Of a DNA stretch of 64,000 nt, positions 5,177 through 29,339 are shown in pieces. The first letter of the stretch is position 1; every line of letters begins with the position of its first letter. A program made the position numbers and the translations under genes. The stretch comes from Candidatus Gastranaerophilales bacterium (GTDB lineage Bacteria; Cyanobacteriota; Vampirovibrionia; Gastranaerophilales; Gastranaerophilaceae): NCBI GenBank assembly GCA_944322615.1, contig CALUPH010000004.1, positions 62,001 through 126,000 of the forward strand, given 5' to 3'. The notes under the pieces were generated by a model. That model was not told the origin of the DNA. It did not search any database and worked only from the letters and a program-made list of their open reading frames with translations.

Positions 5177-5662
5177 CTATACAGTAAAATCAATACCTAT
5201 ATCTGAAAGTGGTTCCATCCCATCAAAAGAGTTACTTCTAATCGGTATTTCTTTCAATATTGCAGCAAGTGTTTGAGTCATTTTAGATGTTTTTTTAGTT
5301 AGCTTACCATTTGCTATATCATTGGCAGCTTTTATTACAGTTTCTAAATTTTCATCATAAACCATAGATCTGCTTTTTAAATCATAAGATTTATTTGTTT
5401 TAATATGATCTCTTTTCCCAATTTTGAATAATCTGTTTTTAGGATCAATGAACGCTACCATTGCTCTATCTTCACTGTTTTTTGGATCTTTGATAATTAT
5501 TGTATCAATGCCTTGATTGTCAAGTTTTTCCATACAAGCAAGATAATCGATTTGCCTTGCGATAGATTCTGCTAAATAAGATGCAGTTTCACCCATTCCT
5601 GCTTTTTCTACATATAATGCCTTGAAATTTGGTCCGTAGTTTGCGTTGGTGCTTATATTCAT
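5177..5662 (-). CDS. Unknown protein with N-terminal NFKAL motif
   Basis: 161 residues without signal peptide or membrane segment. The N-terminus reads MNISTNANYGPNFKALYVEK. The NFKAL at residues 12-16 resembles the ISFGK/INFNG peptides of three other proteins in this window. The body looks like a compact alpha/beta fold (DTIIIKDPKNSEDRAMVAFIDP, then a helical C-terminus) with no recognised catalytic motif. ATG 5662 is chosen because AGGAG lies six bases upstream; an earlier start at 5677 lacks this. It stands alone between two transcription units. Confidence 0.75.
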   Translation of the reverse strand: MNISTNANYGPNFKALYVEKAGMGETASYLAESIARQIDYLACMEKLDNQGIDTIIIKDPKNSEDRAMVAFIDPKNRLFKIGKRDHIKTNKSYDLKSRSMVYDENLETVIKAANDIANGKLTKKTSKMTQTLAAILKEIPIRSNSFDGMEPLSDIGIDFTV

Positions 5663-5750
5663 TTTTTCTCCTAACATCAGTCTTTTGTTGATATAAAACT
5701 TGAAAATATTTTTTTGAACTAAATGTAAAGAAAAATTTACTCAAAAATTA

Positions 5751-6806
5751 TTATATTTTACATACTTCTCTTAACTGTTCAATTTTTAAATCTTTTGTTC
5801 CAAGTATCTTAGATTTGATATTATTTATTTCTAAATATTCTTTTTCTTTTTGCTGTTTATCATTTTTAATTGAATATAAATTATATAACTTATAGTGGTT
5901 ACATAATGTATAGAAGGAATTTTCACCATAAATATAATTATTAATTATCAGCGATTGTTTTAAAAGCTTTAATGCTTCTTCTAATTTATTTTCTTCAATA
6001 TATATTTCCGCTAAATTTTGTTTGAAATAACTATTTAATTTACTTATTTCTATAATATATTCTGTTTTTAATTTGTTATTATCCGGAATAGGAACAAAAT
6101 CAGGCAAAGATGGAGAATTTAATAATAAATATTCTGCATATTGTTCAGCACGTTTGTATTCTCCTTTTTGTTTATACAATTGAGATAGATTATATATAAT
6201 TTTCCAGCTTATATCATTATTTTTTTCTTTATATTTAGTAATTGCTTGCTCAATAAAAACAGCAGCTTCTTTAATATTTCCCTCTTGCAGTTTCAACCTT
6301 CCTAGCTTATTTAGTTCTATCCAGTCACTAAAAGAATTTTGATTTCTAGCTTCTTGTTTTATTGCAATAGCTTTCTTATAATAACTTTCTGCTTCTTTAA
6401 ATTTGTTAAGTTTTAATTTTATATCACCCAAGTCGGAATATATTTTTGCAAGATTTTCATTATAGTTATCATAAAAAACAGATGTCCTTTTGTTTTCAAA
6501 CTTAGAGATAGGAATGAAATATTCTTCATATATTTTTTCTGATTCATTAAATAATAGTTGATTATTATAAAAATCTATTAACTTTTGAGCTGATAAAATC
6601 ATTAAATATGGTTTTTTGTTGATGGTAAATGTTTGAATATACAAATTATTTTTTAATAATTTTTCAATTTGAACATTATTACCTTGTTGGGAAAATATCT
6701 TAAATAAAAGATTAGTAGCATTTAAACTTATTATATTTATATTAATGATTAATAATATTATTATTGTTACTATGATTGGTATAATTATTTTCTTTTTGTT
6801 ATGCAT
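5751..6806 (-). CDS. Membrane-anchored TPR protein
   Basis: 351 residues. One N-terminal transmembrane helix (KKIIIPIIVTIIILLIININ, about residues 5-27) is followed by at least four tetratricopeptide repeats, for example LGDIKLKLNKFKEAESYYKK near residue 130 and LKLQEGNIKEAAVFIEQA near 175. TPRs are protein-interaction scaffolds, and the topology predicts a periplasmic repeat domain. It lies 20 bases after the membrane protein 6827-7435 on the same strand, so the two may act together. No partner or pathway can be named. Confidence 0.8.
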   Translation of the reverse strand: MHNKKKIIIPIIVTIIILLIININIISLNATNLLFKIFSQQGNNVQIEKLLKNNLYIQTFTINKKPYLMILSAQKLIDFYNNQLLFNESEKIYEEYFIPISKFENKRTSVFYDNYNENLAKIYSDLGDIKLKLNKFKEAESYYKKAIAIKQEARNQNSFSDWIELNKLGRLKLQEGNIKEAAVFIEQAITKYKEKNNDISWKIIYNLSQLYKQKGEYKRAEQYAEYLLLNSPSLPDFVPIPDNNKLKTEYIIEISKLNSYFKQNLAEIYIEENKLEEALKLLKQSLIINNYIYGENSFYTLCNHYKLYNLYSIKNDKQQKEKEYLEINNIKSKILGTKDLKIEQLREVCKI

Positions 6807-27551: not shown

Positions 27552-27770
27552 ATGAGTTTTGAAAATTTTTATAAAAATTTAGGGAAAAGAATAAAACAGC
27601 TAAGAGAAGAAAGACATCTTACGCAAGAGAAACTTGCAGAATTAGCAGGCATAAGTTTAGATTATTTAGGTAAGATAGAGATAAGTATAAACAGACCCGG
27701 GTTAATTACATTGTTGAAAATAGCAAAAGCCCTTGATATTTCTATGGAAGAATTATTTAAAACATTATAA
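27552..27770 (+). CDS. Small XRE-family HTH regulator
   Basis: 72 residues, one Cro/C1-type HTH: LGKRIKQLREERHLTQEKLAELAGISLDYLGKIE, then PGLITLLKIAKALDISMEELF. No additional domain. ATG 27552 lies 17 bases after the second unit of a tandem repeat operator, which would let the protein repress itself. It likely also controls the divergent small gene 27247-27465. A structured RNA gene follows about 90 bases downstream on the same strand. Confidence 0.88.
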   Translation: MSFENFYKNLGKRIKQLREERHLTQEKLAELAGISLDYLGKIEISINRPGLITLLKIAKALDISMEELFKTL

Positions 27771-27824
27771 TTCTGATTTTAATTTTTTTGATTTTCTCTT
27801 AATTTAAAATATGTTGAATGAGAA

Positions 27825-27853
27825 TTGAAATGAACTTTGAAATGAGTTATAAT
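27825..27853 (+). promoter_or_regulatory. Sigma70-type promoter of the structured RNA
   Basis: TTGAAA (27825-27830), a 17-base spacer, and a consensus TATAAT (27848-27853). The expected start is G27861, exactly where the first stem of the RNA begins. Confidence 0.75.
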
Positions 27854-27860
27854 TAATATT

Positions 27861-27965
27861 GAAACAGTTGAATGAAATGCAGAAATAATATAGCACCTAC
27901 TGCGGTTTGGTATTCACCATTCGATGATGAGGAGCTGTTCATCCATTCAACTGTTTTTTCTGTTT
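27861..27965 (+). ncRNA. Compact structured small RNA, family not recognised
   Basis: A roughly 100-nt RNA is predicted between a consensus promoter and a T-rich end. P1 is a perfect 13-bp stem (AAACAGTTGAATG 27862-27874 with CATTCAACTGTTT 27944-27956), followed by TTTTCTGTTTTT, so P1 also serves as terminator. Inside are three small hairpins: P2 27878-27882/27900-27904, P3 TGGT-ATTC-ACCA 27908-27919, and P4 GATGA/TCATC (27926-27930/27939-27943) with loop GGAGCTGT. The P2 loop segment AGCACCT could pair six of seven positions with AGGAGCT around the P4 loop, a possible kissing contact. It lacks the conserved SRP RNA loop and is too short for 6S RNA. No coding frame fits. Confidence 0.65.
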
Positions 27966-28089
27966 TTATCATTTACAGCTCCTATAATTTCATCTTACGG
28001 AATTAAAAATGAATATGTTATAATGAATAAAGAAATTCAAGAAGATTTCAAATCAAAATATGATTTTGCAAAGGTAAATATAAATCAAA
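27966..28089. other. Gene-free stretch after the structured RNA
   Basis: Contains ACAGCTCC (27975-27982), the exact complement of the RNA's P4 loop, and a TATAAT at 28019-28024 with a weak -35 (TTACGG). An open frame of 24 codons (28023-28097) reaches the next gene in an ATGAATGA overlap but has no ribosome-binding site and starts inside the -10 box, so I do not call it. Confidence 0.4.
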
Positions 28090-28284
28090 ATGAATGATAA
28101 AAATGCTTTAGATTTATTAAATATGTATATAACAGCTGCTCAAATTGCCAAATCAAAAAATAAATATGAGTATCATCTTAATATGCAAGAAGCTGTTTTT
28201 ATTGAGCTTTTTAAAAAAGCTTTCCCTAATATGAAAGACAATATAAATACTGCTAATATTGCTAAAAATATTTTAAACAGTTAA
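28090..28284 (+). CDS. Small protein of unknown function
   Basis: 64 residues, predicted helical (LDLLNMYITAAQIAKSKNK, then MQEAVFIELFKKAF). No family recognised. A TATAAT at 28019-28024 could be its promoter. The nearest purine-rich site (AAAGG, about 15 bases upstream) is too far for a good Shine-Dalgarno, so translation may depend on an overlapping upstream 24-codon frame. It stands alone between the structured RNA and the permease operon. Confidence 0.5.
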   Translation: MNDKNALDLLNMYITAAQIAKSKNKYEYHLNMQEAVFIELFKKAFPNMKDNINTANIAKNILNS

Positions 28285-28370
28285 TTTATAAATTATAGTT
28301 AAATCTTGCTAAAATTAACAACTCTACACGACCAATTGCCAAAAATGTACAGATATTCTAAAATTAGCGT

Positions 28371-29339
28371 ATGAATTTAGCAGGCTATATAATTAAAAGA
28401 ATTTTTCAAACGATACCGTTATTATTTTTGGTATCCATAATAAGTTTTTTTCTTATTCGGCTTGCTCCTGTTGACCCTTTAGCCGAGCTTAGGTTAAATC
28501 CTTCTATTACTCAAGAAACTTTAGACTACGAAGTCCAAAGATTAGGGTTAGATAAGCCTGTTATTGTTCAATATGGGTTATGGCTTAAAAGTTTTGTTAA
28601 AGGTGATATGGGCTATTGCACCACAGGTGAAAGAGTTGCCGATAAGTTAATGGAAAGAATTCCTAATACTCTTTTACTAACGGGTTTTGTAATTTTCTTT
28701 ACCTGGGCGGTTGGTATACCATTGGGAATTGTTGCCGCTTTACATTGGCGAAAGCCTATTGATAGGTTGCTTACTATTTTATCTAGTATTGGTATGGCAA
28801 TACCTTCATTTTTCTTTGCACTTTTGTTACTTATATTTGCAGTAAAAACAGGCTGGTTTCCTACGGGCGGGCTTACAAGTTATAATCATTCGGAAATGAC
28901 AATTTGGGGCAAAATAGTTGATGTTTTGCATCATTTAGTTTTACCTGTTGTTGTTTTATTTACTATTTCTTTATCAGGTTTACAAAGGCAGATGAGGGGT
29001 AATCTGCTTGATGTTTTGCAATCTGATTATGTTAAATTTGCCCGTGCAAAAGGTTTAAGTGAAACTAAAGTTATATATAAACATGCATTGCGTAATGCAA
29101 TAAACCCGATGGTTACATTATTAGGTTTTGAGTTTGCTTCTTTATTAAGCGGTGCCGCTTTAACAGAATATGTTTTTCAATACCCCGGGTTAGGTCGTTT
29201 AATTCTTGAAGCTGTTATGAAATCTGACATAAATCTTGTTATGGCTTCATTAATGATTGGTACAATAATGCTTGTTTTAGGTAATTTGATTGCCGATATT
29301 CTTTTAAAACTTGTTGACCCGAGAGTGGAGGCAGTTTAA
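28371..29339 (+). CDS. Peptide/nickel-type ABC transporter permease (DppB/OppB)
   Basis: 322 residues with six transmembrane helices. It has the DppB N-terminus (MNLAGYIIKRIFQTIPLLFL), the periplasmic block LAPVDPLAELRLNP, and the EAA-type coupling motif VKFARAKGLSETKVIYKHALRNA near residue 220. It imports oligopeptides or similar solutes as a heterodimer with the next gene, which it overlaps by one base. No solute-binding protein or ATPase is adjacent, so these must be encoded elsewhere. The start has no evident ribosome-binding site. Confidence 0.92.
   Translation: MNLAGYIIKRIFQTIPLLFLVSIISFFLIRLAPVDPLAELRLNPSITQETLDYEVQRLGLDKPVIVQYGLWLKSFVKGDMGYCTTGERVADKLMERIPNTLLLTGFVIFFTWAVGIPLGIVAALHWRKPIDRLLTILSSIGMAIPSFFFALLLLIFAVKTGWFPTGGLTSYNHSEMTIWGKIVDVLHHLVLPVVVLFTISLSGLQRQMRGNLLDVLQSDYVKFARAKGLSETKVIYKHALRNAINPMVTLLGFEFASLLSGAALTEYVFQYPGLGRLILEAVMKSDINLVMASLMIGTIMLVLGNLIADILLKLVDPRVEAV

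Follow-up and report, generated by a model that had tools for sequence, protein, structure and literature searches.

A small structured RNA gene with covarying helices in Gastranaerophilales chromosomes and on a phage contig

Introduction

Free-standing structured RNAs of phages and mobile elements, such as GOLLD, ROOL and HEARO RNA, have been found by comparative genomics, and their function is unknown or linked to a protein. Phage RNAs that stand alone and are conserved with a folded core usually have a specific partner molecule. RNA genes can also be paired with a protein gene, as in txpA/RatA, a convergent type I toxin-antitoxin pair with a long antisense region. RNA anti-CRISPRs (Racrs) mimic CRISPR repeats (PMC10651486), and type II CRISPR systems, including Cas9d (PMC9755519), have tracrRNAs or single-guide-like RNAs.

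Here we describe an RNA gene in the window, the whole stretch of 64,000 nucleotides of Gastranaerophilales DNA that was analysed. An earlier note, made from the sequence alone, had proposed a lineage-specific small RNA of no recognised family at this site. Like the Racrs, it is a small non-coding RNA gene of the kind carried by phages and mobile elements (PMC10651486). The family it belongs to is compact and has no Rfam entry; it shows strong covariation, may contain a pseudoknot, and is found both on a phage and in bacterial chromosomes, those of an uncultured gut order.

Results

Promoter, extent and fold of the RNA gene

The gene and its parts in the window are as follows.

27825..27853, + strand: sigma-70 type promoter of the RNA gene, TTGAAA-17-TATAAT (-35 TTGAAA at 27825-27830, 17-nt spacer, -10 TATAAT at 27848-27853)
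27861..27960, + strand: structured RNA; 5' end placed by P1 and the -10 box, 3' end by the U-run
27861..27874, + strand: 5' strand of P1, partner 27944-27957; both-sided changes in 9 of 14 pairs over 4 sequences
27944..27957, + strand: 3' strand of P1, pairing with 27861-27874
27954-27959, + strand: U-run at the end of P1
27879..27903, + strand: P2, 27879-27882 with 27900-27903 (GCAG/CUGC), with a large loop; nearly invariant
27890..27894, + strand: P2 loop, strand of a likely pseudoknot; proposed partner in the P4 loop, 27934-27938 (AUAGC with GCUGU)
27908..27919, + strand: P3, 27908-27911 with 27916-27919; both-sided changes in 3 of 4 pairs
27926..27943, + strand: P4, 27926-27930 with 27939-27943; both-sided changes in 3 of 5 pairs; its loop is the other pseudoknot strand

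The promoter claimed by the earlier note was found and agrees with the consensus at 11 of 12 positions, although a lone match of such quality is not above shuffled sequences (mean 3.5). The predicted RNA has a length of about 100 nt and G27861 as its first base. The folding energy of 27861-27970 was -28.7 kcal/mol, as compared to -19.8 ± 3.1 for shuffled sequences (z -2.9; 2 of 200 as good). The anatomy described earlier, with a closing stem, three inner hairpins and a terminal T-run, was borne out, and P1 consists of 14 pairs (13 Watson-Crick and one G-U) that enclose the three small hairpins. P1 together with the U-run is probably a terminator stem.

Relatives of the RNA and covariation of its helices

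BLAST within the genus gave an identical sequence at the same locus in two genomes (G006 and G018) and an 81% relative at a different locus in a third (G019). Identity among the window genome (G000), G006 and G018 is uninformative, because their nearby flanks differ by few bases. With the window sequence as its sole input, a covariance model gave the G019 copy 80 bits. When IMG/VR was searched with a DNA pattern for the conserved core, a single true copy turned up, on the phage contig 3300012983_002049 (L174), which scored 95.7 bits with a two-sequence model; other patterns gave only chance matches or none in IMG/VR beyond this contig (L177-L180 and L182-L184 were inspected), and BLAST against phage and plasmid collections gave short chance matches or none. 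The core pattern was present in 4 of 383 genomes of the family. A three-sequence model added a copy in a second genus of the family (G153; 48.7 bits, E 3e-8), which the two-sequence model had missed. Since the genome searches used a coarse first look and G153 surfaced only with the better model, these copy counts are lower bounds. Within the reach of the searches, most genomes of the genus and of the family lack the RNA. Model matches of 18-29 bits (L170-L173, L136, L137), most with broken helices, were not counted, and those that were read lay in apparent coding regions.

Covariation was determined on four diverged sequences, those of the window, G019, G153 and the phage contig. In their alignment 96.9% of the paired cells were paired, as compared to 30-52% when the partner strand was slid by 1-3 columns, and none of 500 shuffles matched the paired percentage or the covariation score. 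Both-sided changes were detected in 15 of 32 pairs (9 in P1, 3 in P3 and 3 in P4), so that these three helices show the helix-keeping compensatory changes by which a structured non-coding RNA is generally recognised. The P1 strands have been rewritten between the copies, yet pair in each of them (CAGUUGAAUG/CAUUCAACUG, AACUGAAAUG/CAUUUCAGUU, UCAUUAAAUCG/CGAUUUAAUGA, AUAAGUUAGAUUG/CAAUCUAACUUAU). Because the alignment was made to fit the P1-P4 model, it is somewhat biased towards that structure; this bias is unlikely to be the cause of the result, as the slid controls collapse and each of the four sequences, folded independently, again formed P1. Based on these relatives, rather than on the folding energy, we regard it as settled that the fold is real and not due to chance. 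The earlier note had looked to relatives for conserved copies and for compensatory changes in P1 and P4, and both were found: diverged copies occur in G019, in G153 and on the phage contig, and changes of this type are present in 9 of the 14 P1 pairs and 3 of the 5 P4 pairs.

About 45 inner bases are conserved (GCAGAAA..CAG..CUGC.GU..GAUG..GGA.GCUGU). As P2 (GCAG/CUGC) hardly varies, it is not independently supported, and an alternative P2 (CAGU/ACUG) competes with this pairing. Separate folds of the G019 and G153 copies have a competing small hairpin in the P2 region. For the pseudoknot between the P2 and P4 loops, 19 of 20 cells are paired across the four sequences, with one-sided changes only (e.g. 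G-C to G-U), and we consider it likely from the alignment. Directly upstream of the G153 copy TTGAAA-17-TATAAT is found as well, TATAAT stands upstream of the G019 and phage copies, and a U-run follows P1 in every copy. On the minus strand of the G019 locus (L004) the predicted transcript would have an extra 5' hairpin (GTTTTTAGATGC...ATCTAAAAAC) between TATAAT and P1, ahead of the RNA core; it is reminiscent of a repeat:anti-repeat helix.

The statement that the region has no coding frame did not hold literally. An ATG frame of 57 codons (27924-28097) spans the 3' half of the RNA and runs into the gene remnant behind it, but the conservation of its peptide does not exceed that imposed by the RNA core. 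Each of the four copies has an ATG frame across its 3' half, as expected if the gene were the mRNA of a small peptide (e.g. MMRSCSS...). However, the residues shared are only those dictated by the RNA core, the peptides diverge through P1, and the changes in P1 keep the pairing instead of the residues, which makes a peptide mRNA highly improbable.

Comparison with known RNA families

Rfam 15 gave no match at the gathering cut-off in the window and the three loci with relatives, in line with the earlier statement that the family is not recognised and is neither SRP nor 6S RNA. Below this threshold (up to E 10) the window matched, with E 2-8, a CRISPR repeat model and models of eukaryotic miRNAs and snoRNAs, nothing sensible among them, and no tRNA or tmRNA was detected with ARAGORN. 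An integron attC site was considered, as GTTGAAT/ATTCAAC resembles its core sites, and was rejected: the order of the sites is inverted and they are not kept in the relatives. A literature search, which was not exhaustive, found no description of the RNA. By all tests applied here the RNA family is new, whereas its general kind, that of phage and mobile-element structured RNAs, is a known one.

The site where close relatives carry a Cas9d locus

Three further features flank the RNA gene.

27552..27770, + strand: small XRE/Cro-type HTH gene (PF01381, E 4.6e-16), upstream of the RNA gene
27785..27815, + strand: truncated CRISPR repeat, 31 of 36 nt, with the 5' G replaced by T; array remnant
27978..28097, + strand: 3' remnant of a zeta-toxin-like gene, 5' part missing; junction directly downstream of the RNA gene

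The six closest genomes fall into two groups at this site. G001, G320 and G011 carry a Cas9d locus with a CRISPR array of 36-nt repeats, cas2, cas1 and Cas9, whereas the window genome, G006 and G018 have the XRE gene, 31 nt of the first repeat, the RNA gene and the zeta 3' end, with array and cas genes absent. The G001 Cas9 scored 1098.6 bits with the NCBIfam Cas9d model, and its counterparts in G011 and G320 share 99% identity with it. In the stretches read, the repeat (GTTTTGATTTTCTCTTAATTTAAAATATGTTATAAT) occurred 8 times in G001, 13 times in G320 and 5 times in G011. In G001, which retains the locus, the same XRE gene adjoins the array. Homology of the window to G320 and G011 starts at 27978; G320 has an intact zeta-toxin-like gene of 202 aa (PF06414), and that of G011 is full length with an in-frame stop where read. 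In the window genome, G006 and G018 no close match to Cas9d was found; the only match was weak and local, covering about 62 residues at a different locus. By comparison with these genomes, the RNA gene occupies the joint of a deletion or replacement.

We also observed a 45-bp stretch just upstream of oppB (28329-28373) that recurs upstream of the zeta-toxin-like gene of G320 (L064), as a duplicated promoter region. In G023 (L070, ~5600-6420) two diverged matches to the XRE-gene region of the window adjoin each other, close to the nrdD end of the variable region. The Cas9d-linked repeats end in TATAAT (L065, G001:C8, ~1904-2400; also L064 and L066). In Neisseria, CRISPR repeats each carry a -10 box and start their own crRNA, and by analogy each Cas9d-linked repeat may do the same.

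The position directly behind the truncated first repeat, where the other three genomes have array, cas2, cas1 and cas9d, together with the occurrence of the RNA on a phage, raises the question of a CRISPR-related RNA: a remnant tracrRNA, a crRNA-like regulator or an RNA anti-CRISPR acting on the local Cas9d. The RNA does not resemble the Cas9d repeat, however. In this test, which covered the local Cas9d repeat among the CRISPR types, shuffles equalled or beat the best alignment in 499 of 500 cases on the same strand and in 456 of 500 on the complement. A repeat-mimicking anti-CRISPR is therefore disfavoured. Resemblance to the tracr region was not clear either (34 of 500 shuffles as good), no anti-repeat was seen in the RNA, and in the window genome, G006 and G018 no cas9 is adjacent. 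Moreover, the genomes with Cas9d lack the RNA, except for G019, and the phage and G153 copies do not adjoin cas genes in the stretches read. A CRISPR-related RNA is thus rather improbable.

The neighbourhoods of the chromosomal copies differ: the XRE gene and zeta remnant in the window, a Bro-N-like remnant and an orphan 150-aa gene at G019, and a U32 peptidase gene and proB at another. The 150-aa gene belongs to no family found, has no viral relative found, and within the genus occurs only in G019. These surroundings bear on a cis-acting element, be it a riboswitch, an attenuator or a mere terminator for the downstream gene. Such an element would account for the terminator-like P1 and U-run at the RNA end and for the compact conserved core with a possible pseudoknot, as in many aptamers. 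What argues against it is that the copies are followed by unrelated or broken genes (zeta remnant, orphan 150-aa gene, a convergent LPD13-domain gene); in addition, the RNA's own promoter directly before P1 leaves no leader for switching. We consider a cis element very unlikely.

The phage copy and its LPD13 neighbour

The phage contig encodes a terminase, a portal, a MuF-type head morphogenesis protein and a head protease. The RNA gene lies on the strand opposite to the late operon, between an LPD13-domain frame that follows the portal and a head gene. Portals 45-48% identical to that of the contig occur in genomes of the Gastranaerophilales family, and in a related prophage (G058) this slot lacks the RNA and contains another small frame. 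Compared with this prophage, the one phage copy has the marks of a phage moron: its own promoter and terminator, an intergenic insertion, and absence from the slot of the relative. Spacers of three arrays did not match the phage contig. An in-frame TGA in the phage LPD13 frame (L174 4847-5331) corresponds to a Trp codon in the related G058 prophage gene, and is either a nonsense change or a case of read-through. A separate record inspected here, Dulem virus 31 (L181; PP511318.1), is filed under Microviridae, but its 35.8 kb encode a terminase, portal, tail sheath and tail tube, so its taxonomy looks wrong.

The LPD domains were defined within large proteins of phages and plasmids, of which they form part, and their precise functions are elusive (PMC5512222). 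Two copies of the RNA gene, those of the phage and G153, are tail-to-tail with an LPD13 frame (PF18825; E 2e-18 and 1.8e-5, respectively), whose stop codon falls within the P1 3' strand. As the LPD13 fragment of G153 is arranged in the same way, the G153 copy looks like a phage remnant. LPD13 was not found in annotated phages, and no LPD13 homology was found beside the window and G019 copies.

With this arrangement the RNA could be the partner of the LPD13-domain gene, as an antitoxin or as an antisense or termination device convergent with the phage gene. Opposite-strand frames also end within P1 in the window and in G019. The overlap is only about 10-13 nt, however, and falls where the RNA is least conserved; in G153 the frame is fragmentary while its RNA is intact; and the related prophage has a similar gene start after the portal without the RNA. 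Type I and III toxin-antitoxin systems have the toxin beside every copy, LPD13 stands at 2 of 4 copies, and it is not known as a toxin. Because LPD13 is absent beside two copies, an obligatory two-gene toxin-antitoxin unit is disfavoured, and we regard an LPD13 partnership of any of these kinds as unlikely.

Discussion

We found a promoter consensus, a covarying fold, a patchy distribution in differing neighbourhoods and one phage location. The description as lineage-specific, given in the earlier note, had to be abandoned: the RNA is patchy in the genus and family, stands in unrelated neighbourhoods and is present on a phage, so that mobile and phage-borne would fit it better.

Our preferred reading, held tentatively and with a little less than even confidence, is a mobile, phage-derived RNA gene that acts in trans through its conserved core as phage cargo. 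Its transcription, route of transfer, binding partner and benefit are what we infer. The gene would be free-standing, with its own promoter, a transcript of about 100 nt, and P1 with the U-run as terminator. The family would travel with Gastranaerophilales phages and be left behind in host chromosomes. The RNA would present a folded core, a four-way junction that is probably locked by the pseudoknot between the P2 and P4 loops. As P1 is free to change if it stays paired and about 45 inner bases are fixed, the RNA is probably not an antisense regulator acting through the P1 sequence, and the same pattern suggests a folded molecule that is recognised by something. As the product of a small cargo gene (moron), this core may act in trans; most likely it would bind and occupy a protein of the host or of a competing phage. 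From moron biology, the likeliest benefit would be anti-defence or superinfection control.

The phage-cargo reading has to be weighed against the sample of four independent sequences, with one phage copy known. Bacterial contigs carry three of the four copies, and the retention of intact copies next to decayed genes could also point to a chromosomal role. More specifically, and with low confidence, the gene might be an RNA-only anti-defence or immunity factor of phage origin that inactivates a host defence protein and was kept after decay of the phage where the Cas9d locus was lost. The RNA is small enough to be made, probed and used directly as bait.

Among the described systems, Racrs mimic repeats, whereas the RNA described here is unlike the local Cas9d repeat and not clearly like its tracr region. 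With type II tracrRNAs and single-guide-like RNAs (Cas9d: PMC9755519) it shares a structured RNA ending in a hairpin and U-run, and it sits where the Cas9d array and tracr region stood, but it has no anti-repeat, no adjacent cas genes in the stretches read, and a closed four-way junction. Its tail-to-tail position with a small frame in 2 of 4 copies recalls txpA/RatA, from which it differs in an overlap of about 10 nt, in LPD13 as the partner domain and in two copies without LPD13. Although it is only about 100 nt long and matches no Rfam model, the RNA resembles GOLLD, ROOL and HEARO RNA in its conserved fold and mobile-element context.
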